From Flavobacteriia bacterium (lineage in GTDB: Bacteria > Bacteroidota > Bacteroidia > Flavobacteriales_D > Crocinitomicaceae), in the NCBI GenBank assembly GCA_026391005.1, contig JAPLEV010000005.1, positions 1-64,000 on the forward strand: 64,000 bases of DNA, written 5' to 3'. The notes under the pieces are model-generated. The model ran no database searches and was not told the DNA's origin. It worked only from the letters and a program-made list of their open reading frames with translations. Position 1 is the first letter of the stretch. Every line of letters starts with the position of its first letter. Made by a program: the position numbers and the translations under genes. This document shows positions 1 to 13,721 of the stretch, piece by piece.

Positions 1-83
1 TGAATAGTTTCCTTCTCCTTAATGGCTTCTAATGCAACTTTAGTTTTGAATTGCGCACTAAATTTTCTTCTTTCTTTTTTCAT
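1..83 (-). CDS. IS3-family transposase OrfA, N-terminal fragment (window edge)
   Basis: The minus strand reads MKKERRKFSAQFKTKVALEA and then runs off the left edge of the window, 27 codons in all. This lysine/arginine-rich opening followed by F-K-x-K-V-A-L-E-A is the usual start of the helix-turn-helix OrfA protein of IS3-type insertion sequences, which binds the element's ends and is normally joined to the DDE OrfB by frameshifting. The ATG at 83 is the only sensible start. Too little is visible to say whether the element is intact or to place it in an IS3 subgroup. It points away from the adjacent gene cluster. Confidence 0.7.
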   Translation of the reverse strand, partial: MKKERRKFSAQFKTKVALEAIKEKETI

Positions 84-145
84 ATACAACTGTTAAAATT
101 ACACTTTAACTAGCTGTCTTAAAAATGGGGGGAATTATATGATTC
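84..145. mobile_element. Probable terminal region of the IS3-like element
   Basis: Upstream of orfA on the minus strand is a short non-coding stretch with a run of six C residues followed by ATTTTTAAGACAG. C-rich ends of this kind are common just inside the termini of Bacteroidota IS3 elements, from my memory of such elements. The exact end, the matching inverted repeat and the target duplication cannot be fixed because the other end is outside the window. The boundary given is approximate. Confidence 0.35.
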
Positions 146-275: not shown

Positions 276-683
276 ATGTACAAAATATTTATTACATCAT
301 TTTTAGTTCTTTTTATTCTTTTTGGATGCAAGGACGAGAGGGTTGAAATACGCCGTTCAATTATTACAAAAGCAACAACGGAAATGGAGCTAATAATTGA
401 TAAGGCAATTAACTTACAAACCGCAGGTTTGGGGAGTTTGTTTATTGATAACATCATTTCACCAGAGAAAAAGAAAGAAATGATTGAAGAAAATTTATTG
501 CCTCGCTTCAAAGATTTTGTTTCACAAACCGAAAGCATCGATTCGTTAAAAGACATGGACAACGACGAGATGTTTCGCTATAAAATGATTCTTAAAAGTA
601 CAGTAGGGAATTCTTCGGAAGACGCTCTTAAAGCTTTGTATGAAAAAATTATAAGTGGTGATTTTAAAATGAACATTAAATAG
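276..683 (+). CDS. Small lipoprotein, first gene of the tubulin/Hsp70-like cluster
   Basis: The 135-residue product opens with a short charged segment, a hydrophobic core and a lipobox L15-F-G-C18, so it should be cleaved by signal peptidase II and lipidated at Cys18. The rest is charged and predicted helical, with no domain I recognise. The stop lies four bases before the next ATG, so it is very likely co-transcribed with the cluster and may be its envelope anchor or assembly factor; that role is inferred only from position. The ATG at 276 fits the promoter at 221-250. An ORF on the opposite strand over the same bases is a shadow. Confidence 0.75.
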   Translation: MYKIFITSFLVLFILFGCKDERVEIRRSIITKATTEMELIIDKAINLQTAGLGSLFIDNIISPEKKKEMIEENLLPRFKDFVSQTESIDSLKDMDNDEMFRYKMILKSTVGNSSEDALKALYEKIISGDFKMNIK

Positions 684-687
684 GATT

Positions 688-2148
688 ATGAAAAAGTGGA
701 TATTTTTCGCAATAATTGTTATTGTTGCTCTGATTTTTATTTTTCGGGGTTGTAAAAAGCCGGTAGATAAATGTATATCTGGCAGACAAGGGTGTGTTAA
801 ATGCACGGATGCATCATTTTTTTCAGGTCCCGACTCAAAAATATATGGCGATGAATTTTTAAAAACGGACATTTCCAAAACGTTTCCTAATAACGTTTAT
901 CCATATGTTAAAAATAATATAGATGAATTGAAAAAAGGCAACATTTATTTCGATGTATCATTAGGATTAGCGCCAGCTACTGTTGCTTTTAGCTCTTTAA
1001 TCACCTCATTTAAAAGCTGCATTAGTAGTAGTAATTTAAATCTTTGGGAGGTTAGTTACACAAAAAATGATGGTAAAGTTTCAGATGTTCCAAGGAAATT
1101 ACTTGGTTCACTAAGTGACAATTTTCCTTATTTGAAAAATTCAGATAATTATGTTTCGCGTACTTCATTTCTAGAAGGGGCCTTAAGTCAAATAGTTAAA
1201 GACACAACAAGTATTTCGATGTTTGTTACTGACTTTTTACTAGATAGAGGATCATTTGATGAACGCGGAAGAGAATTAGTTAGAAATACCGGGCGAGCTT
1301 GTTATACTTGTGCTGGTGGAGAGACCTGGGCAACTGATTATTTTAAAGATTGGTTTAATAAAGGTGGTAAATTGTTAGTTGCAAGCACTCCTTTTATAAA
1401 TAAGTTATATAAATTTGAGACTAAGGCATACGCACTTTTTTTCATACCGAAAGGCCACAAATATACCGAACTATTGACGGCGCTAAAATCAAAAACAAAT
1501 AATACAGTCCAAATAACAATTATTGATCCATCTGCCTTGTCTGTAGACATAGATGAATTAGATAAATATTGTAAAGACCCAAATAAAGGAAAGGGAATTA
1601 TGTCAATACTTAGTTACAGTGATCGATACTTAGTATTAGGAGTTGACAATAAAAAATTATCTTATTCGATTAAGAGTGGTATTAGCGACATTGAACTCCC
1701 ATTGATTAACGAAACAAACCTGATCGACAATCCAAAACTTAAAATCGACCCTCCTATAGATTTTTCAGGTGATATCGCTCAAATACTTGAAGAAAAAGAT
1801 GTGCCAACTGTTTTATTGGGTAGAAATCAAAAATTAAAAAATGAAAATCCAATTTCCGTTTTGTCCAATGACAAAGGAATTTCCTTAAAGTTAAGTTCTG
1901 TTCAGAACCTAGGCAAAAACGACATTTTAATGAAAAAATCAGTGGTAAGATTGGATGATAACACCACGATAAACCTCAACAAATCAAATCTAGTCGCACC
2001 TGTTAAAGGAGATGACAAAATCAAGGTTATAAATAATTGTCTTTTCTCGAATATAAGCGAGGCATTAAACGAATTTAACGATAGTAATTATAAAAAGGTT
2101 CCTGTTTTTGTAATTTACTCTATTATAAATGTTAAAACTCAAAATTAA
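688..2148 (+). CDS. Membrane-anchored protein with a putative von Willebrand A-like domain
   Basis: The protein has 486 residues. Residues 4-19 form one hydrophobic helix; the Cys22 after it is preceded by Arg-Gly, a poor lipobox, so a transmembrane anchor is more likely than lipidation. Cys22, 29, 35 and 38 form a Cys-rich stretch behind the anchor. A vWA-like metal site can be traced: a beta strand ending in D89-x-S91-x-G93, T159 in an S-R-T-S-F-L-E-G-A-L helix, and D182 after a hydrophobic strand (MFVTD). vWA domains bind Mg2+ or Mn2+ and partner proteins. The assignment is by motif order only, and the last 200 residues are unrecognised. The next gene follows after 21 bases. Confidence 0.65.
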   Translation: MKKWIFFAIIVIVALIFIFRGCKKPVDKCISGRQGCVKCTDASFFSGPDSKIYGDEFLKTDISKTFPNNVYPYVKNNIDELKKGNIYFDVSLGLAPATVAFSSLITSFKSCISSSNLNLWEVSYTKNDGKVSDVPRKLLGSLSDNFPYLKNSDNYVSRTSFLEGALSQIVKDTTSISMFVTDFLLDRGSFDERGRELVRNTGRACYTCAGGETWATDYFKDWFNKGGKLLVASTPFINKLYKFETKAYALFFIPKGHKYTELLTALKSKTNNTVQITIIDPSALSVDIDELDKYCKDPNKGKGIMSILSYSDRYLVLGVDNKKLSYSIKSGISDIELPLINETNLIDNPKLKIDPPIDFSGDIAQILEEKDVPTVLLGRNQKLKNENPISVLSNDKGISLKLSSVQNLGKNDILMKKSVVRLDDNTTINLNKSNLVAPVKGDDKIKVINNCLFSNISEALNEFNDSNYKKVPVFVIYSIINVKTQN

Positions 2149-2169: not shown

Positions 2170-2580
2170 ATGGACTTAATAGCATCGTTATTTGACAACA
2201 TCGCCGTTTTAATTTGGCATATTATAATAGGTTTGTTTTTTGCAGGTATAATTTTAGCTGTGAATCATTACGTTCCTTATAGTTTTTCGAACAAGCCGAA
2301 AGATGTCATGTACAGAAAATTTTTCTTCTACGTAACGCTTTTTATCGTTTTTGCTTTTTCTTGGTTTTTTGATTTATTTTATTTGAATGATTCAATATCT
2401 GATAACTCCGGAAAGGATGCCAGTTACCTCACAGAGCTTATCGATGATTTAGCGGCTTTAATTCCTTTGAGTGCAATAATATCAACAATAGCATATGCGG
2501 GTATTTATTATGCAATCGCTTTATACATGAAAAACAAATTAAAATTGCACAAGTGTTTTTCGGTATTCAAATTCAAATAA
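2170..2580 (+). CDS. Three-helix integral membrane protein, unknown function
   Basis: The 136-residue protein has three clear hydrophobic segments, at about residues 10-31, 50-70 and 94-116, separated by short polar loops and followed by a lysine-rich tail (KNKLKLHK). I recognise no family. It sits between the vWA-like protein and the tubulin-like protein with gaps of 21 and 22 bases, so it is probably an inner-membrane component of the same system, perhaps the docking point for the cytoplasmic tubulin-like and Hsp70-like subunits. That role is inference from context. Confidence 0.7.
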   Translation: MDLIASLFDNIAVLIWHIIIGLFFAGIILAVNHYVPYSFSNKPKDVMYRKFFFYVTLFIVFAFSWFFDLFYLNDSISDNSGKDASYLTELIDDLAALIPLSAIISTIAYAGIYYAIALYMKNKLKLHKCFSVFKFK

Positions 2581-2602: not shown

Positions 2603-4345
2603 ATGTCACAGTATTTCTTAGTAGCTGCCGGTGGAACCGGAATGCGATGCTTACAAAGCTTTATTCAGCTTTGTGCTCTAGGTATGTTCCCTAAAAAGAA
2701 TATCACCGTTTTATTATTGGAAACCGATGCCGAAAACAAGGACAAGGCCAATGCTGAGCAACTTGCGACTTGGCATAACTATCTCCAAGGGAAAGCGAAA
2801 GCAGAGGAGTCCAAAGATAAAACGAATGATGGAACCGAAAATAAAGGTGCAGAGTCCTCTATGGTTGGAGATTATTTTAGTGCAAACATTGAAATGTGCG
2901 TGTTTGTGCCAGATTATTCCCGTGATGACTCCAGAAACTTCAAGGTTATAAGTCAGGTTGAGCGAGGAAACTCAGAGGTGAATCACAAACTTGCGAATAT
3001 ATTTTATGAGGAGGGTGTTCAAGAATTTAATTTGGGACATGGTTACCGTGCTCAAACCCACCTCGGCTCTTATTTAATGTATCACGCAATTATACAAGAA
3101 ATTAGAACGGCTATTTCCGACGATATTTACATGAGAAAAAGTGAGCTTTATCGTTTTATTAGCAAGGTTCAAGCGGCTTCTGCGGGTGATGGCGCTCGTG
3201 TTTTTGCGCTTGGATCCACTTTTGGGGGTACCGGTGCGTCTGCTATTCCAATCATTACGCGCGCCATTACAGATTCTTGCAAAATTTTAACGGGTGACAA
3301 AATTTCAATGGATAATATTTATTATGGCGCGGTTGTTTTAAGTTCGTATTTTAAATTTCCGCCGCCAAGCGATAGCCATTTAAAAGAGGATAAAATCATC
3401 GCTAATCCCAATTTTCTTGAACATAATTCTGCTTCTGCATTAATGTATTATGTAAATGATGGTACAATTAAAAAGACGTACAAAAGAATGTATATTCTTG
3501 GTTGGGGAGGAAAGGGCTTTGCTCCCAATAATACAGACGATTATAAAATTGAGTTTTTAGGAAAACCTAAAAATGCAACAGATAAAACAGCAACAGGCGG
3601 TAAGGCGCAGGAAAACCCATGTCACGTGCTTGAATTATTAGCTGCGTTTTCAGCGAAGCATTTCTTTGAAGAGCAAACAACACCTAGTTCGGCTCTGCCG
3701 GACATTATGGAAACGCAGTTTCGTTACAAGTCATTTGAATTGGACGGGATTGGCGACAGTTTAATGCCGAAAATTGAATGGGACGATTTGTTTAGCGTTC
3801 AAAAACCAGCGAAACAAGATTCAACCGATGCGGTAAAAATACATGACCAAATGAAAGATAATTTCGTGGGCATGGTGATCTTTGCTGCAATTATTAACTC
3901 CGCTTTTGAAGGAAAGGTGTCGAATTTCCTTTCTTGTTTACAAGCGCACGGGAAAACATACGAGTTAACCGAAAAGGAAACAGAAAGTATTGATGCCTAC
4001 TTACAATATTTTTATTCTTCTAAAAGCCAACAAAATGATGGGGTCGTTCCTGGTTGGTTTAAACAAATTTATTTAACATTTCACTCCATAAAAAGTGAAC
4101 CAGGAAAAATGTTTTTGGGTATTCCATCAGGCGTTTTATCAGCCAGTGAGCGTGGCGCAAAATGGTATTTGGCCTTGGATCGAAATGGCTTGGATGCTAA
4201 AAAAGCACAAAACCTTTTTATATCAGAATTCTTAAAAACAGCAGGTTCTGGCAATTTTAATGCTCTAATGGCCGGTATCAGATCAACAGTAACCACCATT
4301 GGAATTAAAAATGAATTAGCCGAAACCTTAATAGAAAAAAAATAA
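2603..4345 (+). CDS. Tubulin/FtsZ-superfamily protein (Tubulin_2-like)
   Basis: This 580-residue protein carries the nucleotide-binding signatures of the tubulin/FtsZ fold in the right order: a first strand with glycine loop (VAAGGTG, residues 7-13), a second strand ending in E-T-D (residues 40-42, like the NTD of FtsZ), and a T4-type loop G-S-T-F-G-G-T-G-A-S (residues 204-213, like GGGTGTG of FtsZ). Residues 62-88 are a charged, low-complexity insertion. I could not find a convincing T7 catalytic loop, so GTP hydrolysis by polymerisation is unproven. It is longer than FtsZ (about 350-400 residues). It probably belongs to the large tubulin-like families found beside vWA proteins in bacteria. 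The next gene starts six bases after its stop. Confidence 0.75.
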   Translation: MSQYFLVAAGGTGMRCLQSFIQLCALGMFPKKNITVLLLETDAENKDKANAEQLATWHNYLQGKAKAEESKDKTNDGTENKGAESSMVGDYFSANIEMCVFVPDYSRDDSRNFKVISQVERGNSEVNHKLANIFYEEGVQEFNLGHGYRAQTHLGSYLMYHAIIQEIRTAISDDIYMRKSELYRFISKVQAASAGDGARVFALGSTFGGTGASAIPIITRAITDSCKILTGDKISMDNIYYGAVVLSSYFKFPPPSDSHLKEDKIIANPNFLEHNSASALMYYVNDGTIKKTYKRMYILGWGGKGFAPNNTDDYKIEFLGKPKNATDKTATGGKAQENPCHVLELLAAFSAKHFFEEQTTPSSALPDIMETQFRYKSFELDGIGDSLMPKIEWDDLFSVQKPAKQDSTDAVKIHDQMKDNFVGMVIFAAIINSAFEGKVSNFLSCLQAHGKTYELTEKETESIDAYLQYFYSSKSQQNDGVVPGWFKQIYLTFHSIKSEPGKMFLGIPSGVLSASERGAKWYLALDRNGLDAKKAQNLFISEFLKTAGSGNFNALMAGIRSTVTTIGIKNELAETLIEKK

Positions 4346-4351
4346 AGCATT

Positions 4352-7300
4352 ATGGCAAAAGATAGAGTTCCCGTATTAGCGGCCAACAAAACCCTTTCTA
4401 CAGGGTTACCAAAAACAGAGGATGGATGGCATTTATTCACCCAGGTAAATAATTTTATTCAAGGGCTAACGCTTGAGGCTTTGAACACCGATAAAGGTGA
4501 CGCATACGAAGTCTTAACAGCCATTCCTTCTCCATGGGTGAGGGCCTATATGATGACCAATTCTATGCGTTGGCCGTATGTAACCCGCCACGCTAAACAA
4601 GAGGCACAAACGGGTAAGAAATTAGAGGGAATGGAGGGCTTGTATGGCGCCATGCAGGATGAATATAAAGGATTGTTGGCTTGTCTAGCCCTTTATAGTA
4701 GTCGTGTAACCATTGAAAAGGTAATACTTGACTTTAAGGACGAGAAAGTTAACAAGGAGCTCGATTCTCAAATCGACATTCTAAAAAAGGTTTACAACAT
4801 ATATGATGTTGCAGGTGCTTTTGGAAACTTGTTGTTTGAAGATGCGCCATTGTGGTCAGATAGCCGCAAAAGTAAGGAAGAATATAATCCACCATATGTT
4901 CAATTGTTGCACATTGATGGCGTTGTTGTTGGGGCTACAGGCCCGGGTTGTTTGATTTATCCTGCAGCGAGTTATGATTTATCACGCAATGGGATTGGTT
5001 TCTTTAAGAAAGGGCGATTCCGTGACCCGATAGATTTCTTTGATGCCAAGCAGCTAGAAAAACTTTATCATTATTGCGGCAGGTTGCGTGAACAAATTAA
5101 TGACTATGAAAACACCCTTACCAACCCGCTTTCTATTTTATTGTCTGTGCGCACCTTCTTAGGTGAGTTCATGCAAGAAATTAAAGAACACATTACCACC
5201 AACTATAAAGGACATGAAATAAAGCCGACAGGAGTCCTAGATTATTTCCAGAAATTTTCTTTCCCATTTGACTTGGTTTTCAATATGGATATGAAGATCT
5301 ATAAAACGAAAGACGGGCGATACCTTAACAATAACGAAACGGGAAATTTAGAAGAATTTAATCCCGACTTGTTGTTGCTTAATTCAGAAACATCTAACGT
5401 AATTATGTTAGACCCTGAGGTTGGTTTCAATCCGGAGCTATCAACCGTACTTAAAGCAATAGATGGCAATAAAAAAGCATATTATTTTGCTTTACCTTTG
5501 AGTGTTCAGGGTTTAAATGAATTTTATAATGAAATTTCTGATTTGTTAACCGAAGGAAAAGGAGACAAATCACTTACTGCAACATATGACCCAGAAGAAA
5601 ACAGTTTAGACGTATGTTTGGAGCTTGAGATTTCCAACTCAATGACCCCTTTCTTTAAACGATACAAAATAGCAAATCAGAATGAGCCGTTTGCTACTAG
5701 TGTAATTCTATGGCCAAATTTCGTTTCTCCTAAATGGAACGAATATTATATGTACTCTGAAGCGCCTCACAATCGAAAGGGCTTTAAATCGCTACCATTA
5801 TATGCCAATAAAGATTCCGTAACAGGTGTTCGCCAAAATGAAAATGGTGATATTTACCATGTAACCGAGGATACTAGAAAAACATACGAAAGAGACTTTA
5901 AAACAGAACTAATCGTTCGTTACGACGAGCAGTTATTGAAAGAGCGCTCGATGAATTATGAAATCTATAAATCTGAGATTCCATTTACAGGTATAGAGAT
6001 AAGAACAAGTACCGACGCGTTAACCGATAGTTGCTGTGGTTTTGTGTTAATGAGAAATAATACACAAGACAAAAATCAAAGCGTAATTAATTTCACATCG
6101 AATCGGGATGAATTAGATCCAGTATATGTAGGAATTGACTTCGGAAGCACAAACACAACAATAACCCAAAGTAATCTAAAAGGAGGACATAATAATATTA
6201 TTATTACAAATCGTCGACGATTTATTCTTGGTAAGGAAAATACAGATAATAATGTATATGCATTGCCAAACGAGTTATTCTTTTTTCAAAATGATCGAAT
6301 CTTACGCAGCGTAAAATCAGCGATGGTTTATCATGATTTATTACGAATCGTGAATCCAGAGCTAGGAGTTGCACACCCAATTTCTGGTGGTGTTCCGGTA
6401 TTTGAGCGGAACATTAACCTGTTGAACGGAAAAGACAACATTATGCTCTTTAATGCTATTCCAAACGAAGAAACAGAACTTCTTTATGATTTAAAGTGGA
6501 AGCGCGAAGATCGTTATTTGGTCAATAAGAAAGCATATATAAAAGCGATTTGGTTATACCTTAACGCCGAGTTATTTGCAGAAAAGAAACGTCCAAGCAC
6601 ACTTCTTTGGAGTTACCCTACCTCAATGCCAAGAGATTTGAGAAAAACGTATGAAGGGATATACCAGGAGGTTATTGATACCATTAATCCAATTCAATTT
6701 GATGGTAAAACAACAATTTCACCGCTATCAGATGACCAAAGAATTACAATGCGCGCACTCAGCGAAAGTGAAGCGGTATGTAATTATGCATTATCTGGGG
6801 GTGGCGTTGGACTTGGGGCAACTTCAGTAATGGTTGGTATTGATATTGGTGGGGTTACTTCCGACATATTAGTATTAACGACGGATCCAGGAAACAAACG
6901 CGCTAAATTAATGAAGCAATCTTCCGTTAAAATCGCGGCGAATAAACTTGCCAATGCTATTGGTAGCTCCGAGAATTTACAGAAGTGTATCAAGCATTTC
7001 GTTAGAATGAATAAGTTGGAATTGCCATCTTTAGAAAACATAAACGACACTACGGCAAATTATTTAACCAACCTCTTATTTGAGGAAATGGAAGATAATG
7101 AAAAATTAGAGCGATCATTCTATCGTGAGCTTTGGAGCCCTGAAAACGAACAGTTAAGCCGAAACGAAACCAGAGGTCTAATTGCAATCGCTTCGTACAT
7201 CTGCGGATTACTTTTATTCCATTCTGGTCAAGTTATTAAAAGTATGCTTGATGATCCGGAAAATGCAACTAACCCAAGTGTATCTGAGTTAAAGAACGGC

Positions 7301-7981
7301 TTCCACCTAAAGATTAGTCCTTTTGGTAAAGGAGGAAAACTATTTGATTGGCTTAACGCTGCATTAAATGAATTCTCAGCGGAAGAGTTTTATAAAAAGT
7401 GTTTCTCACTTGGATTCAATGTTGGTGTTGAGGATGCTGTTGCAACGGAACCATTCAAATCATTCTCAATAATTGTTCAACGCGATAATTTAAAGATGGA
7501 GGTTGGTTACGGACTTACCTCTCCTCGAGATGTCTTAGACGTTGACCCTAGAGCAAGAGTTGAGATCGTTGGCGAAAGCGGTTATGTTTTCAAAGATGCT
7601 GAAGGAAACAAAAAAGTGCTCAATTGGAATGACCCAATTAATCCATCGCAAATCTTTGAGTTTGGGGAAGATTTAATTATTCCTGAACCAGCAAATAACA
7701 ATAGTGGTTTAGCCCACTTTGAAAAATACAAGACCGCCTACCTAGATCTTGTTAAGAATTGGGATATATTTGATTATTCAGTAATTGCATCCTCTAGTCA
7801 AAACTTTGCTCAGGTAAGTTTAGAGAACTATGTTAAAAAGGATGAGGATTGGATTGCTGGTGCTAATATGAAGAATAAGACGGGTGACGAAGAGGATTTT
7901 ATGTTTTCTTGTTCCCCATTCTTATACCAAGGGATGTGTTACCTTGATGAGGTAATCATGAAAACAATTTATAAAAAATAA
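4352..7981 (+). CDS. Large protein with C-terminal Hsp70/actin-type ATPase domain
   Basis: The 1209-residue product has two halves. Residues 1 to about 585 match nothing I recognise. The C-terminal half carries Hsp70/actin-fold motifs in Hsp70 order: phosphate-1 G594-I-D-F-G-S-T-N-T602, a WSYPTSMPRDLR segment near residue 753 (like the TVPAYF region), S-E-S-E-A-V near 805 (like EPTAAA), phosphate-2 G829-I-D-I-G-G-V-T-S-D838, and G992-K-G-G as a possible adenosine loop. ATP binding is therefore likely. The domain order is unlike Hsp70, whose ATPase is N-terminal; SrfB-type virulence proteins are one family worth comparing. No signal peptide is present. It follows the tubulin-like gene by six bases, so the two are surely coupled. 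Confidence 0.8.
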   Translation: MAKDRVPVLAANKTLSTGLPKTEDGWHLFTQVNNFIQGLTLEALNTDKGDAYEVLTAIPSPWVRAYMMTNSMRWPYVTRHAKQEAQTGKKLEGMEGLYGAMQDEYKGLLACLALYSSRVTIEKVILDFKDEKVNKELDSQIDILKKVYNIYDVAGAFGNLLFEDAPLWSDSRKSKEEYNPPYVQLLHIDGVVVGATGPGCLIYPAASYDLSRNGIGFFKKGRFRDPIDFFDAKQLEKLYHYCGRLREQINDYENTLTNPLSILLSVRTFLGEFMQEIKEHITTNYKGHEIKPTGVLDYFQKFSFPFDLVFNMDMKIYKTKDGRYLNNNETGNLEEFNPDLLLLNSETSNVIMLDPEVGFNPELSTVLKAIDGNKKAYYFALPLSVQGLNEFYNEISDLLTEGKGDKSLTATYDPEENSLDVCLELEISNSMTPFFKRYKIANQNEPFATSVILWPNFVSPKWNEYYMYSEAPHNRKGFKSLPLYANKDSVTGVRQNENGDIYHVTEDTRKTYERDFKTELIVRYDEQLLKERSMNYEIYKSEIPFTGIEIRTSTDALTDSCCGFVLMRNNTQDKNQSVINFTSNRDELDPVYVGIDFGSTNTTITQSNLKGGHNNIIITNRRRFILGKENTDNNVYALPNELFFFQNDRILRSVKSAMVYHDLLRIVNPELGVAHPISGGVPVFERNINLLNGKDNIMLFNAIPNEETELLYDLKWKREDRYLVNKKAYIKAIWLYLNAELFAEKKRPSTLLWSYPTSMPRDLRKTYEGIYQEVIDTINPIQFDGKTTISPLSDDQRITMRALSESEAVCNYALSGGGVGLGATSVMVGIDIGGVTSDILVLTTDPGNKRAKLMKQSSVKIAANKLANAIGSSENLQKCIKHFVRMNKLELPSLENINDTTANYLTNLLFEEMEDNEKLERSFYRELWSPENEQLSRNETRGLIAIASYICGLLLFHSGQVIKSMLDDPENATNPSVSELKNGFHLKISPFGKGGKLFDWLNAALNEFSAEEFYKKCFSLGFNVGVEDAVATEPFKSFSIIVQRDNLKMEVGYGLTSPRDVLDVDPRARVEIVGESGYVFKDAEGNKKVLNWNDPINPSQIFEFGEDLIIPEPANNNSGLAHFEKYKTAYLDLVKNWDIFDYSVIASSSQNFAQVSLENYVKKDEDWIAGANMKNKTGDEEDFMFSCSPFLYQGMCYLDEVIMKTIYKK

Positions 7982-7995
7982 GTTTTTGTATAAAC

Positions 7996-8020
7996 AATGA
8001 TGGGGCCTTGCCCCATTATT
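7996..8020 (+). terminator. Hairpin between the Hsp70-like gene and the PLD gene
   Basis: AATGATGGGGC and GCCCCATTATT form an 11-base-pair stem with one G-U pair and a three-base loop. It starts 15 bases after the stop codon. There is no T-run after it, so it may be a partial terminator, an mRNA-stabilising 3' end or an attenuator lowering expression of the downstream PLD gene. Confidence 0.6.
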
Positions 8021-8036
8021 GTAAATCTGATTTAAA

Positions 8037-8483
8037 ATGGAAATAAAAACAGGATTTAGTCCAGGTGACCAATGTAAGAAAATTATAATGGACGCTATAC
8101 GTTCAGCTCAGGACCAAATTGACATATGTGTATTTACCATAAGTGATAACCAAATCTCTTCATTAATTAAAGATGCTTTTAATCAAGGCCTTGGCGTTCG
8201 AATTATAAGCGATAATGATAAAATGTTAGACCTTGGCTCAGATATTAAGGATTTAGCTGATGCGGGAATAGAAGCGAAAATAGACAAGACACAATATCAC
8301 ATGCACCATAAATTTATGATTGTTGATCATAAAACGGTTTTAACAGGATCTTACAATTGGACAAGAAGTGCCGAAGAGTATAACGAGGAGAATGTTGTAT
8401 TAATACACCATGAGCCAACGGCAAAACAATTTGAAGTTGAATTTGATCGTCTGTGGGAGCAATGTGAATACGTTGTTGATTAA
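8037..8483 (+). CDS. Single-HKD phospholipase D-family nuclease-like protein
   Basis: The 148-residue protein is one PLD half-domain: H90-x-K92-x4-D97 followed by the G-S-x-N motif at residues 104-107. Proteins with a single HKD motif, such as bacterial Nuc and mitochondrial PLD6/Zucchini, work as homodimers and cleave phosphodiester bonds in nucleic acid or cardiolipin. No signal peptide is seen, so it should act in the cytoplasm, unlike secreted Nuc. It lies 55 bases after the Hsp70-like gene, across a hairpin, on the same strand. It may be the effector of the cluster or an independent passenger; position favours the former weakly. The ATG at 8037 gives the full domain. Confidence 0.85.
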   Translation: MEIKTGFSPGDQCKKIIMDAIRSAQDQIDICVFTISDNQISSLIKDAFNQGLGVRIISDNDKMLDLGSDIKDLADAGIEAKIDKTQYHMHHKFMIVDHKTVLTGSYNWTRSAEEYNEENVVLIHHEPTAKQFEVEFDRLWEQCEYVVD

Positions 8484-8626
8484 TCAATAAAAAAAGACCT
8501 TGGAATAAGTCAACTTACAATTGATTATTTAGTTTAGGCGTACTATTTTCACTGCCCTTAGCACAATCCACATTCAATAGTTAATTACTACTCAATACCA
8601 AGTCGTGACGTTATTTTTATTTTATT

Positions 8627-8638: not shown

Positions 8639-9523
8639 ATGTCTACTGCGATAGAAAAATATAATAAAAGAGGAATAAAGACAAGTTATATTTCCACAAT
8701 AATAGGAATATCGCTTGTTTTATTTATGATCGGAATCGTATTAAGTGGAATGTTTGGCCTAAGTAATATCCAAAATCAAGCAAAAGAAAACCTTCAAGGG
8801 GATATCTTTTTCGATCCGAAATTAAATGACGCGGACATTAAACAAATAGAATTAAGAATCAAGTCTTGGGCCGAGTTTAAAAAAGTATGGTTTGTTTCCT
8901 CCGAGAGAGCAATTAAAGAATTTGGCGGTAAAGATCAAGCTGAAATAACAGAATTATTAGAGGGAGAAAATCCTTTGCCTCCGTCCTTGTGTTTTTCTCC
9001 CAACGCTGAATTTGCCAATAAAAGTGGCATGAAACAAATTAAAACGAAGTTGTTAAAGCAATTTTCAAAAGAAATAGATGAAGTAAATTACGATGAATCG
9101 AGTGTTGAGAAGGTAAATTTGGGGTTTCAACAGTTCGTCATGTTGTTTTTATCGATGGCCGCCCTTTTAATTATTATTGCTGTAGCGATGATAAATAATA
9201 CAATTAGGATGTCCCTTTTTTCAAAACGATATAACATTAAAACAATGACGCTTGTCGGCGCCACAGGACGCCATATACGGCTACCATACCTTAAAATGGC
9301 TGTTTTTCAAGGGTTGATATCCGCGATTGTTGCTTTATCGCTATTAACAACCGTTTTTTTTGCATTAAATAATGTTTTAGAAACAATTGAAGTGTCTTTT
9401 TCTTGGCAGGTCTTACTTTTACTTGTTGGATCTTTAATTCTTATTGGCATTTTTATTACTGTTATATCTACTTGGTTTGCATTAAACAAGTATCTTCGCA
9501 TGAAATTAGATGATTTATATTAA
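8639..9523 (+). CDS. ftsX: Cell division protein FtsX, ABC-transporter-like permease
   Basis: The 294-residue protein has the FtsX plan: one N-terminal transmembrane helix (about 18-40), an extracytoplasmic domain of roughly 120 residues, then three helices near 165-187, 218-240 and 255-277. The V-G-A-T-G-R-H-I-R-x-P-Y stretch before the third helix is the family's cytoplasmic loop that contacts FtsE. FtsEX links cytoplasmic ATP hydrolysis to activation of periplasmic peptidoglycan hydrolases at the septum. FtsE is not in the window. Next come DUF3098, uppP and truB, an order I know from other Bacteroidota. The start is supported by the -7 box four bases upstream. Confidence 0.9.
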   Translation: MSTAIEKYNKRGIKTSYISTIIGISLVLFMIGIVLSGMFGLSNIQNQAKENLQGDIFFDPKLNDADIKQIELRIKSWAEFKKVWFVSSERAIKEFGGKDQAEITELLEGENPLPPSLCFSPNAEFANKSGMKQIKTKLLKQFSKEIDEVNYDESSVEKVNLGFQQFVMLFLSMAALLIIIAVAMINNTIRMSLFSKRYNIKTMTLVGATGRHIRLPYLKMAVFQGLISAIVALSLLTTVFFALNNVLETIEVSFSWQVLLLLVGSLILIGIFITVISTWFALNKYLRMKLDDLY

Positions 9524-11402: not shown

Positions 11403-13721
11403 ATGAAAATAGCCGCTCTCACATTTTTGGCCCTACTATTTATCCAAACGAACGTAATTTCCCAATGTCAATTTGTATATGTAAGCACAAGCGGCACACC
11501 CTTAGGATTGGGCACACAAGCCTCCCCGATGGACATTCAAACCGCATTACTTACAGCGGGTAACGGCGCATATATACGCTTAGCAACCGGACAATATCCT
11601 ATTGATAACAACCTTTCACTTAATGGCAACAACATAACGATTGAAGGTGGATTTATCGATACATTGGCTTGGACAAAGACAAGTTTGGCAGGGGCAAGTA
11701 CCATTTACAGAACCAACCTTAATCCTCAGGGGCCTAACACATCGTTACGAATTAGCGCTTTTGAAATTTCAAATAAAAGTTTTTTCCGTTTTCAAGACCT
11801 AACAATACAAGTAGCAAATGCGCCAGCGTCTTCATTGGCAGCACCATTTGGAACATCTGTTTATGGTGTTTATTTGGATAGTTGCTCGGATTATAAATTC
11901 GTTCGTTGTCAATTTATTGCTGGTCATGCAAGTTCGGGGTTTTCAGGTACTAGCGGGGCCGCTGGGGCCAATGGAAACAATGGTTCATTAGGAAATTCTG
12001 GTTCCTGTAATGGTAGTGATTGTACTTTTTCAAACGGCAGCGCCGGGGCAAGTGGCGGTGCTGGCGGTGCTGGTGCCAGTGGAGTGGGAGGAGGTTCAGG
12101 TGGGCCAAATCAAAATAACGCGCAAAATCCGGGAGCAGTAGGAACGGCAGGAACGGCTAGGAATGGCGGCGGCGGCGGCGGCGGCGGTGCCGGTGGAGAC
12201 GAATGTTATTCAAATAACGCGGGAAATGGTGCCCTTGGCGGCGCATCTGCTTGTAATAATGGTGGCACTTCAGGTGCTAGGGGAAATGAGGGTGATCCGG
12301 GAGGAAATGGCGCCAGTGGTGGCAATGGTTCCGCCGGTTTAGTCGGCGCCCAAGGTGCCAACGGTCCGCAAGGCCAACATTCTAACGGATTTTGGACCCC
12401 GGGCACTCAAGGCGCAAATGGTTTGGATGGTTGCGGGGGCTCAGGTGGTGGCGGTGGTGGCGGTGGTGGTCGACAGAATTGTACTTTCTGCGATAACGGC
12501 CCAGGAAATGGTGGAAGTGGTGGCGGTGGCGGAGGCCAGGGCGGAACTAGTGGAACCGGTGGTTATGGAGGAGGCTCTTCTTTTGGAATTTATATCAATG
12601 TTAGCGGCATCAACGGAAGCATAGTTGATTGCTTTGTTCAAGCAGGAAATTTAGGCCCTGGAGGATTAGGTGGCAATGGTGGTTCGGGCGGAAATGGAGG
12701 TAGTGGAGCAGGGATTCAAGCGGCATGCAGTAGTGAAATTGGCGATGGTGGTGCGGGCGGAATAGGTGGCGCAGGTGGCGCAGGTGGAAAGGGCGGAGAT
12801 GGTGCCAATGGTATTAGTTTCCCTGTTTACGTGGTAAGTGGAGACACGTTATTATCCCAAATTAGTACATTTGATTTAGCTAGTCAACCAGAAATTCAGG
12901 TTTCATACGCAACTTGTACGAATCAAGCGATGTCAGTGAGTGATGTATTGGCTGGACCAGGCCCTAGCGCTTGGACCTTTACCTATCCATCTTCTGTTGC
13001 GGTTTCTAACGTCAATCCAACAACAATAGCCTCACCCCTTGTTGGACATACAAGTATACAACTCTTAACTTCTAATTACTTGGACTTTATAAATATAACA
13101 TGTCAAAGTGATGAAGTTACGCTTGATGTCTCGATTTGTCAAGGTGATAGTTATCAGTTTAATGGTATGTCTTATACACAAGCGGGAACCTACACTTCCA
13201 ATCAAACAAATATACAAGGGTGTGATAGTTTAGTTACTTTAAATCTATCCTTGGAGCAGATTAACAATACGATTTCTGCGAATGGTTTAGTGATAAATTC
13301 TAGCTTACCGGGCCTTCAATACCAATGGATAAATTGTACTACTTTAGGAGCTATTCCCGCTGCAACAAGCGCAAATTACACGGCAACTCAAAATGGGACC
13401 TATGCTGTTGTTACGACCAATTCTAATGGTTGCACCGACACCTCTAACTGTATTTCAATTACAAATGTAGGCATGAACGAACTATCCTCAGCATCATTTA
13501 CGGTATATCCAAATCCTGTAGTGAATCAATTAACGATTAGTTTCGAAAGTGTTTTTATGGGCGAAATAACGATTACAGATATGAGCGGTAAGTTGATATA
13601 TGAGATGTCAAGCAACAATAAAAAAGAAATTAATATAAATATTAACTCCCCCAAGGGAATTTACTTTGTTAATGCTTCTGATCAAAATGGTATAAAAACG
13701 GTTAGGATTATTAAATTATAA
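11403..13721 (+). CDS. Secreted glycine-rich T9SS type A cargo protein
   Basis: The 772-residue protein starts with a Sec signal peptide (about residues 1-20, ending V-I-S-Q). Residues 20-175 look like a right-handed beta-helix start (G-A-Y-I-R-L-A-x-G-x-Y, then I-x-G-G-F). From about 176 to 475 it is dominated by glycine in G-G-N, G-A-x and G-x-G repeats, reminiscent of mycobacterial PE_PGRS or collagen-like regions. It ends in a T9SS type A sorting domain with the Y-P-N-P motif near 700 and K-G-I-Y-F-V. T9SS exports such proteins across the outer membrane and attaches or releases them. It is likely a surface or matrix protein. (GGC)7 at 12165-12185 is a slippage-prone, frame-preserving repeat. 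Confidence 0.85.
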   Translation: MKIAALTFLALLFIQTNVISQCQFVYVSTSGTPLGLGTQASPMDIQTALLTAGNGAYIRLATGQYPIDNNLSLNGNNITIEGGFIDTLAWTKTSLAGASTIYRTNLNPQGPNTSLRISAFEISNKSFFRFQDLTIQVANAPASSLAAPFGTSVYGVYLDSCSDYKFVRCQFIAGHASSGFSGTSGAAGANGNNGSLGNSGSCNGSDCTFSNGSAGASGGAGGAGASGVGGGSGGPNQNNAQNPGAVGTAGTARNGGGGGGGGAGGDECYSNNAGNGALGGASACNNGGTSGARGNEGDPGGNGASGGNGSAGLVGAQGANGPQGQHSNGFWTPGTQGANGLDGCGGSGGGGGGGGGRQNCTFCDNGPGNGGSGGGGGGQGGTSGTGGYGGGSSFGIYINVSGINGSIVDCFVQAGNLGPGGLGGNGGSGGNGGSGAGIQAACSSEIGDGGAGGIGGAGGAGGKGGDGANGISFPVYVVSGDTLLSQISTFDLASQPEIQVSYATCTNQAMSVSDVLAGPGPSAWTFTYPSSVAVSNVNPTTIASPLVGHTSIQLLTSNYLDFINITCQSDEVTLDVSICQGDSYQFNGMSYTQAGTYTSNQTNIQGCDSLVTLNLSLEQINNTISANGLVINSSLPGLQYQWINCTTLGAIPAATSANYTATQNGTYAVVTTNSNGCTDTSNCISITNVGMNELSSASFTVYPNPVVNQLTISFESVFMGEITITDMSGKLIYEMSSNNKKEINININSPKGIYFVNASDQNGIKTVRIIKL
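12165..12185 (+). repeat. (GGC)7 trinucleotide run inside the glycine-rich gene
   Basis: Seven consecutive GGC codons followed by GGT encode polyglycine. The surrounding 900 bases are GC-rich compared with the rest of the window because of glycine codons. Changes in repeat number would keep the frame. Confidence 0.9.

Follow-up and report, generated by a model that had tools for sequence, protein, structure and literature searches.

A tubulin-like gene and an adjacent actin/Hsp70-fold ATPase gene are inherited together and are naturally fused in three bacterial genomes

The DNA analyzed here (the window) comprises the first 64,000 nucleotides of contig JAPLEV010000005.1 from a Flavobacteriia bacterium. 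A gene near its start (2603-4345) encodes a 580-residue protein, for which a first-pass annotation had proposed a relationship to tubulin and FtsZ. We report that this tubulin-like gene is co-inherited with its neighbour (4352-7981), which encodes an actin/Hsp70-fold ATPase, and that in three other genomes the two genes are replaced by a single open reading frame (ORF) encoding a fused protein. On account of these natural fusions, we consider it very probable that the tubulin-like and actin-like proteins act together. The cytoskeleton has its two roots in the tubulin and actin folds, and full-text searches of the open literature listed no description of mobile operons encoding both folds, of a tubulin-actin cassette or of a protein in which they are joined. 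A natural fusion allows joint assembly to be tested directly in a single protein. If the two proteins form one assembly, they would offer a compact system in which to ask how tubulin and actin folds co-assemble, what part is played by a tubulin relative lacking the usual catalytic acid, and whether bacterial immunity makes use of such assemblies.

Linkage of the two genes and natural fusions

Among the 22 loci with a short tubulin-like gene in the first round of comparison, 21 have the ATPase gene next to it. This set leaves out L034-L036; L055 and L057-L060 repeat L054 or L056. The exception is L023, where the tubulin-like gene is broken; positions 7250-8488 of this locus have the appearance of a decaying cassette, with a stop in the tubulin-like gene, no ATPase gene and shortened MotA- and MotB-like genes. 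Since the models had been built in part from many of these first-round loci, 15 further loci outside the model building were compared, of which L103 is close to L025 and L116 to L005. The ATPase gene comes next after the tubulin-like gene in 14 of the 15, and a short transmembrane (TM) protein gene precedes the tubulin-like gene in 13. A VWA-like model matches in nine of these loci, and four more encode a lipoprotein in which similar motifs were recognized by eye; MotA-like, MotB-like and TerD proteins are encoded in seven, six and two loci, respectively.

The evolutionary distances of the two proteins are correlated across 33 loci with r = 0.96, a value to which host relatedness contributes; none of 2,000 permutations was as high (largest 0.27). 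This set was restricted to tubulin-like proteins of 440-700 residues and ATPases of 1,000-1,400 residues, and excluded L004 (a fragment), L022 (ATPase gene cut by the contig end), L023 (stop in the tubulin-like gene, no ATPase gene), L110 (no ATPase gene) and L034-L036.

The fusions are single ORFs of 1,615, 1,681 and 1,686 residues in genomes G312, G367 and G489 (loci L034-L036), which represent two genera of one family. In every fused protein, residues 9-13 include GGTG and a VGGTG(A/S)S motif lies at about residue 190; the fusions also carry DFGTSH and DLGGGTLD motifs. In L034, L035 and L036 the tubulin model matches residues 118-306 (domain E values of 9.1e-12, 1.9e-11 and 8.6e-8), and the ATPase model matches residues from about 1008 to 1361 (whole-sequence E values of 4.5e-9, 9e-13 and 6.1e-11), the latter match being split in L034 into two pieces (0.0015 and 0.00014). 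As a control, the tubulin-like and ATPase proteins of the window each match their own model only. The fused proteins are 35% identical to that of L034 over their length and are therefore not an artefact of one assembly. An interpretation of these 1,600-residue proteins as a system without an ATPase gene was rejected, as the ATPase model matches show a fusion. With the L035 protein as query, matches were obtained in 2 of 390 genomes (G489 lay outside this sample) and in none of the plasmid records. Two results tell against the fusion interpretation: single-sequence PDB searches with the halves of the L035 protein found neither FtsZ nor actin, and Pfam recognized in the fusions only Tubulin, at 0.0014 to 0.027, and nothing in the ATPase part.

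Superfamily membership and motifs of the two proteins

The following features of the two genes are referred to below:
2603-4345 (+), ATG-to-stop ORF for the 580-residue tubulin/FtsZ-superfamily protein
2630-2641 (+), T1 glycine loop GGTG, residues 10-13; G10, G11 and G13 in 33 of 33 relatives
2786-2866 (+), charged insertion, residues 62-88; similar length in L003 only
3221-3241 (+), T4 signature FGGTGAS, residues 207-213; F207-G211 in 33 of 33 relatives, aligned with the T4 of FtsZ
3608-3634 (+), QxNxxHxxE, residues 336-344; Q336 and E344 in 33 of 33 relatives
4352-7981 (+), 1,209-residue protein, C-terminal part an actin/Hsp70-fold ATPase

The product of 2603-4345 almost certainly belongs to the tubulin/FtsZ superfamily as a very divergent member, because Pfam matches of its family, profile matches to PDB sequences and structural realignment of its AlphaFold 2 (AF2) model all support the first-pass annotation on this point. 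At E <= 0.1, Tubulin_2 (PF13809) was found in 16 of 18 family members (best 2.2e-10) and Tubulin (PF00091) in 12 of 18 (best 4.8e-6). The family profile retrieved 28 PDB sequences at E <= 1 (best E 0.0083): 26 FtsZ proteins, one 'tubulin/FtsZ GTPase' and one unrelated tRNA isopentenyltransferase; it is collinear with an FtsZ chain over two stretches, near T1/T2 and near T4. The comparison of an AlphaFold model with tubulin, which the first-pass annotation had suggested, was performed on a low-confidence model built from six sequences. When candidates were realigned to this model by VIA-align, FtsZ was the top match (Z 14.6, root-mean-square deviation 3.8 over 209 residues), and each of the best 50 of 869 candidates (Z 14.6 to 12.6) is an entry for FtsZ or tubulin.

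This assignment has several limits. The 580-residue protein alone reaches Tubulin_2 with an E value of 0.063 and 12.9 bits, under the cut-off of 27; its AF2 model has a mean predicted local distance difference test (pLDDT) score of 54.9, 156 residues falling at 70-90 and no residue exceeding this range; and hhalign against ten FtsZ sequences aligned T4 alone, with 2.8% probability. A Foldseek search with the model gave no match at E <= 0.001 and returned oxidoreductases mixed with tubulins. A Rossmann-fold dehydrogenase, which the first-pass annotation had named as the outcome that would refute it, did come up as the first-ranked Foldseek match, an oxidoreductase, though only at E 0.011 (TM-scores 0.16/0.30) and amid tubulins; no dehydrogenase occurs in the best 50 of the 869 realigned candidates, a result that falls short of a formal exclusion. 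A single-sequence phmmer search of the PDB yielded three chance matches, which were disregarded. The same genome also encodes a normal FtsZ (contig C39).

The glycine loop, the ETD motif (residues 40-42), the GGTGAS loop (208-213) and the charged insertion (62-88), all described in the first-pass annotation, are present in the translated ORF at those residues. In an alignment of 33 relatives (own protein included), the invariant positions are G10, G11, G13, G27, G147, G155, S205, F207, G208, G209, T210, G211, P216, A279, Y297, Q336 and E344, and position 40 of the ETD motif is acidic in all 33. The T1, T2 and T4 motifs thus occur in order and are invariant or nearly so, which argues that the tubulin-type motifs are not due to chance. 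Apart from this protein, L003 (55% identical) alone has a long insertion; at this place the remaining members show either a gap or a stretch that is shorter and dissimilar.

The first-pass annotation had found no T7 catalytic aspartate, and the alignment agrees: no T7-type acid is common to all 33 relatives. The only fully invariant acid past T4 is E344, within QxNxxHxxE (336-344), where helix H7 possibly starts. At column 353, 82% of the relatives have Asp and the protein under study has His. Residues 375-420 of the AF2 model score below pLDDT 50, and the T7 region was not located in it; helices occupy residues 408-579 of the same low-confidence model. The segment IEWDDLF (391-397) was tried as T7 and dropped, the aligned acid being D, N, H, Q or T among 18 members, and an EF-hand_15 match (E 0.017) was dismissed, as 1 of 18 members matched. 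The protein is likely to bind GTP, and its ability to hydrolyze GTP is doubtful.

The first-pass annotation of 2603-4345 did not cover the operon or the adjoining gene. The C-terminal part of the 4352-7981 product is an actin/Hsp70-fold ATPase, in which the phosphate-1, phosphate-2 and adenosine motifs occur together with the fold. Its motif residues are D596-G598-T602, E805, D831-G833-G834-T836-D838 and G992/G994; across 16 relatives, D596, G598, E805, D831, G833, G834, D838, G992 and G994 are invariant; these residues belong to the phosphate and adenosine motifs that characterize actin/Hsp70-superfamily proteins. The AF2 model covers the last 643 residues (residues 1-566 lie outside it). Foldseek matched it best to an Hsp110 nucleotide-binding domain (E 1.7e-4) and gave 26 matches at E <= 0.001; apart from one ParM and two chains of the ciliary central pair, the 50 matches listed are all Hsp70/Hsp110-type chains. 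Realignment by VIA-align placed FtsA first (Z 11.7), followed by PilM, MreB, actin and some sugar kinases (Z 11.7 to 10.1). A profile search matched MreB at 1.6e-6, and Pfam (E <= 0.1) recognized FtsA in 7 and MreB in 3 of the 16 relatives. The low mean pLDDT of the model (52.2) speaks against the assignment.

Gene context, distribution and variant forms of the cassette

The two genes belong to a run of six ORFs on the plus strand (276-683, 688-2148, 2170-2580, 2603-4345, 4352-7981 and 8037-8483), separated by 4, 21, 22, 6 and 55 bases. The other features of this region are:
1-140 (-), end of an IS3-like insertion sequence (IS), cut by the contig end; OrfA start at 1-83, terminal inverted repeat at about 114-140
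276-683 (+), first gene of the run, 135-residue protein with a lipobox-like start (FGC)
688-2148 (+), 486-residue lipoprotein with VWA-like motifs (DVSLG; later TDF) in a 13-sequence alignment
2170-2580 (+), 136-residue protein with three hydrophobic segments by hydropathy
8037-8483 (+), 148-residue single-domain protein of the phospholipase D (PLD) superfamily, NucT/DrmC-like; PLDc_2 at 2.1e-32

Upstream of the tubulin-like gene there are usually genes for a VWA-like lipoprotein and for a small membrane protein. In the lipoprotein family (13 sequences), Cys22 of the lipobox, Ser91, Asp182 and Gly318 are invariant; the VWA-like character of the 688-2148 product is a reading of its motifs, as the protein has no Pfam match and its profile found in the PDB no VWA chain and one weak unrelated chain. 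The 135-residue protein matched only itself in BLAST and phmmer searches of the ORFs of 40 loci. The PLD protein matches the PADLOC model of the DISARM protein DrmC (2.9e-14) and NucT (1.9e-16, below the NCBIfam cut-off), and its gene is a possible member of the cassette.

The next gene is ftsX at 8639, the first of a housekeeping stretch recognized by eye. In all 14 other same-genus loci compared, ftsX, DUF3098, uppP and truB occur together, and neither the cassette nor the PLD gene is present upstream of ftsX within flanks of 0.7 to 1.5 kb; similarity of the closest of these loci (G006) to the window starts at 8615. Four of the 14 have upstream of ftsX a gene that is presumably ispG. In the genome of the window, the ispG-like gene stops 208 bases short of the end of contig C14, and 27 bp at this end match window positions 114-140 in inverted orientation (89%, E 1e-5). 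From these two observations we infer that the order is probably ispG, IS, cassette, ftsX, and that the assembly was broken within the IS. The translation from the OrfA start of this element opens MKKERRKFSAQFKTKVALEAIKEKETI, and the element is presumably of the IS3 type.

The cassette has a patchy distribution. A search with the 580-residue protein matched 2 of 100 genomes (its own and one of the same order), and none of 60 other same-genus genomes; a genome-contig scan added two metagenome-assembled genomes (MAGs), L003 from Verrucomicrobia (55%) and, as a fragment, L004 from Bacteroidetes (82%). The profile search of the phylum matched 16 of 395 genomes at E <= 0.001 (own included; three are the fusions), and at E <= 1e-10, again with the own genome included, the counts were 22 of 395 genomes for the class and 5 of 299 for the order. 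Beyond the phylum, coverage was limited to plasmid records, one genome-contig scan and viral contigs. Five cyanobacterial plasmid records matched, and with the L005 protein as query also a Prevotella record; matches on viral contigs were few, and phage records contained no match. L056 adjoins a relaxase gene (5.7e-30) and an integrase gene and looks like a mobilizable element. The cassette is rare and scattered, and we read it as accessory and mobile in view of its patchy distribution, the relaxase and integrase of L056, the cyanobacterial plasmids and the island between ispG and ftsX.

Two forms of the cassette can be distinguished: one has MotA- and MotB-like genes behind the ATPase gene, and the other has OmpA (L003, L024, L027) and TerD (L024, 1.4e-70; L111; L115). 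By its TM gene, the window cassette is of the second form. The MotA-like set consists of eight sequences, two of which (L034 and L036) were added by eye and have no MotA by Pfam. The commonest ZorA model matches five of the eight, another ZorA model reaches 1.6e-9, and the coiled-coil proteins JetC and LmuB also match; Pfam found MotA_ExbB in three of the eight, and the profile retrieved only coiled-coil or designed helical chains from the PDB. Of the eight MotB-like sequences (L033 and L034 added by eye, the latter without MotB by Pfam), six have OmpA and three MotB_plug, and W10, D15 and M17 are invariant. Behind the fused gene of L034 (5786-10378), a weak VWA-like match was observed, and both this region and L036:17187-18935 encode long helical membrane proteins that are MotA-like by eye and have no Pfam MotA match. 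Tubulin is not mentioned in parts of a study of MotAB diversity (PMC12505986).

Retropepsin-like genes occur in 8 of 40 loci and SNase-like genes in 6 of 40, the SNase matches of L026 and L111 lying on the other strand and that of L111 at the far edge; Pfam confirmed both kinds in L005. SNase-type nucleases with lipoprotein-like starts are encoded at L005:16266-16787, L116:11061-11591 and L105:1951-2490, each next to a lipoprotein retropepsin-like gene behind a MotA/MotB-bearing cassette; exported nucleases in this position are unexpected. Among ten accessory proteins of relatives, PADLOC recognized a ZorB-type OmpA in L003 and a weak LmuB in L005, and gave no match for seven. In a viral-contig record, the gene L054:16908-18407 behind a MotA/MotB-bearing cassette matches the PADLOC candidate PDC-S14 (1.6e-24) and Pfam DUF4357.

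Relation to known systems and possible function

Three described systems and the FtsZ-FtsA pair share features with the cassette. FtsZl1 proteins (Tubulin_2, PF13809) are likewise members of the tubulin superfamily with inserts between T1 and T4 and no recognizable T7 region, and their operons include a VWA partner and, in some loci, OmpA, to which the lipoprotein that is VWA-like by motif and the OmpA of some relatives correspond here. By comparison, the 580-residue protein is shorter and falls below the Pfam cut-off, and its gene adjoins an actin/Hsp70-fold ATPase gene and no GTPase or kinase gene was found beside it: Pfam on the six proteins of the run (the contig starts at position 1) recognized no GTPase family at E <= 1 and no kinase. 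FtsZl1 is further marked by an extended coiled coil and a helical C-terminal domain; the 580-residue protein has helices at 408-579 in its low-confidence model. In the parts of the original account concerned, FtsZl1 is not reliably alignable past H5, and its operons, which contain VWA and OmpA partners and the unnamed families A1-A2 and B1-B9, are proposed to serve envelope maintenance or remodelling; section 3 of this account names no actin-fold partner (Makarova and Koonin 2010, PMC2875224). Tubulin_2 proteins are treated as a divergent, sparse group in part of a work on FtsZ/tubulin evolution (PMC9871819). The GAP1-N2 GTPase-centric conflict systems also combine tubulins, VWA proteins and HSP70 and are predicted to be membrane-proximal. 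Their tubulin and HSP70 themes are described as non-overlapping; they are accompanied by a GTPase and GAP1 and are found for the most part in firmicutes and actinobacteria (Kaur et al. 2020, PMC7159879), whereas here the two folds are encoded by adjacent genes or one protein and no GTPase is found in the window operon. Features of Zorya are seen in those relatives that have a MotA-like protein with a long helical tail matching ZorA models and a MotB/OmpA-like protein; in contrast, the window operon has neither ZorA nor ZorB (Pfam and PADLOC on the six proteins), and its core proteins match no Zorya model, in searches that were not aimed by name at ZorC, ZorD and ZorE. In FtsZ-FtsA, a tubulin-fold and an actin-fold protein act jointly at the membrane; the present cassette differs in being accessory, in the great divergence of both proteins and in the separate FtsZ of the genome. 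We read the cassette as a variant of the FtsZl1-type system in which tubulin and actin folds are paired.

The lipobox cysteine, the TM protein, OmpA and the stator-like genes make it probable that the cassette is an envelope machine. Based on the stator-like genes, the nucleases and the mobility, a plausible purpose, which we put forward tentatively, is an envelope-level defence against phage or other incoming DNA. The whole reading that we favour, a mobile, envelope-anchored machine with two nucleoside triphosphatases that is likeliest to serve in defence, is close to evenly balanced, if slightly on the doubtful side. In such a machine, the exported VWA-like lipoprotein would sense or dock at the envelope and signal via the three-TM protein. 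The tubulin-like protein would bind GTP and assemble on the inner face of the membrane; by itself it would be a poor GTPase, as it has no conserved T7 acid. The actin/Hsp70-type ATPase, in which the phosphate and adenosine motifs are kept, would co-assemble with the tubulin-like protein or remodel it using ATP. In some relatives, where lipoprotein protease or nuclease genes are often found as well, this core would be coupled to a MotA/MotB-like ion motor that includes an OmpA domain, and in others to OmpA and TerD proteins; the copy in the window has the PLD nuclease gene behind it. The most specific version of this scheme is unlikely as a whole: an immune machine of a new class in which the tubulin-fold protein and the actin-fold ATPase, in some cases a single polypeptide, assemble at the inner membrane and direct nucleases and proteases at DNA entering through the envelope, with an exported VWA-like sensor as gate and, in many relatives, a MotA/MotB-type motor. 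If true, it would be a mobile system using both cytoskeletal folds in one complex.

A number of observations count against the favoured reading. The flank of the window consists of housekeeping genes and is no defence island, and its operon has no MotA or MotB. PADLOC found no family for the 135-residue lipobox-start, VWA-like, TM and tubulin-like proteins and gave a weak match of the ATPase to DrmB (E 0.0078), the PLD protein giving the only clear match in the window cassette. The ZorA matches of the MotA-like proteins may partly reflect coiled coil, and that of L005 (E 0.0052) sits in the tail; the MotA-like proteins of L005 and L054 have no Pfam MotA match, and L028, just over the Pfam MotA cut-off, is the only one of those shown singly to pass it. 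The PLD, SNase and protease genes vary among loci and could be bystanders.

TerD is stress-linked, and both TerD and OmpA are also compatible with envelope stress. The same core could belong to a system of envelope maintenance or remodelling without a role in defence, in which the tubulin/actin pair, anchored by OmpA or MotAB and with the VWA-like protein as sensor, shapes or repairs the envelope under stress. The TerD genes of L024, L111 and L115, the housekeeping surroundings in the window and the VWA and OmpA association in the FtsZl1 operons, as far as the account covers them (PMC2875224), point in this direction; however, upkeep of the envelope does not call for a patchy distribution and a mobile context, and nuclease genes are present in several loci. 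We regard this explanation as somewhat unlikely. It is rather improbable that the protein is simply FtsZl1 in its known kind of operon and divergent in sequence alone, its actin-fold partner being perhaps one of the families left unnamed in 2010. The Tubulin_2 matches in 16 of 18 members and the agreement of the VWA and OmpA partners with the published operons, which include A1-A2 and B1-B9, would fit, but the 12.9 bits of the protein against a cut-off of 27, the lack of any GTPase or kinase by Pfam among the six window proteins and the absence of a named actin-fold partner from section 3 of PMC2875224 do not. A TubZ- or ParM-like segregation system for the DNA of the carrier element is very improbable. 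Both folds do serve plasmid partition (as also stated in part of PMC9178275), and the cassette is located on plasmids in cyanobacteria; against this, inspection by eye shows no gene for a small DNA-binding adaptor, the partners that recur are lipoproteins and membrane proteins, and contigs of 5 to 7.5 million bases carry several of the copies.

Further downstream in the window, positions 11403-13721 encode a secreted protein of 772 residues, whose middle part is very rich in glycine and whose C-terminal tail resembles, by eye, a type IX secretion signal.

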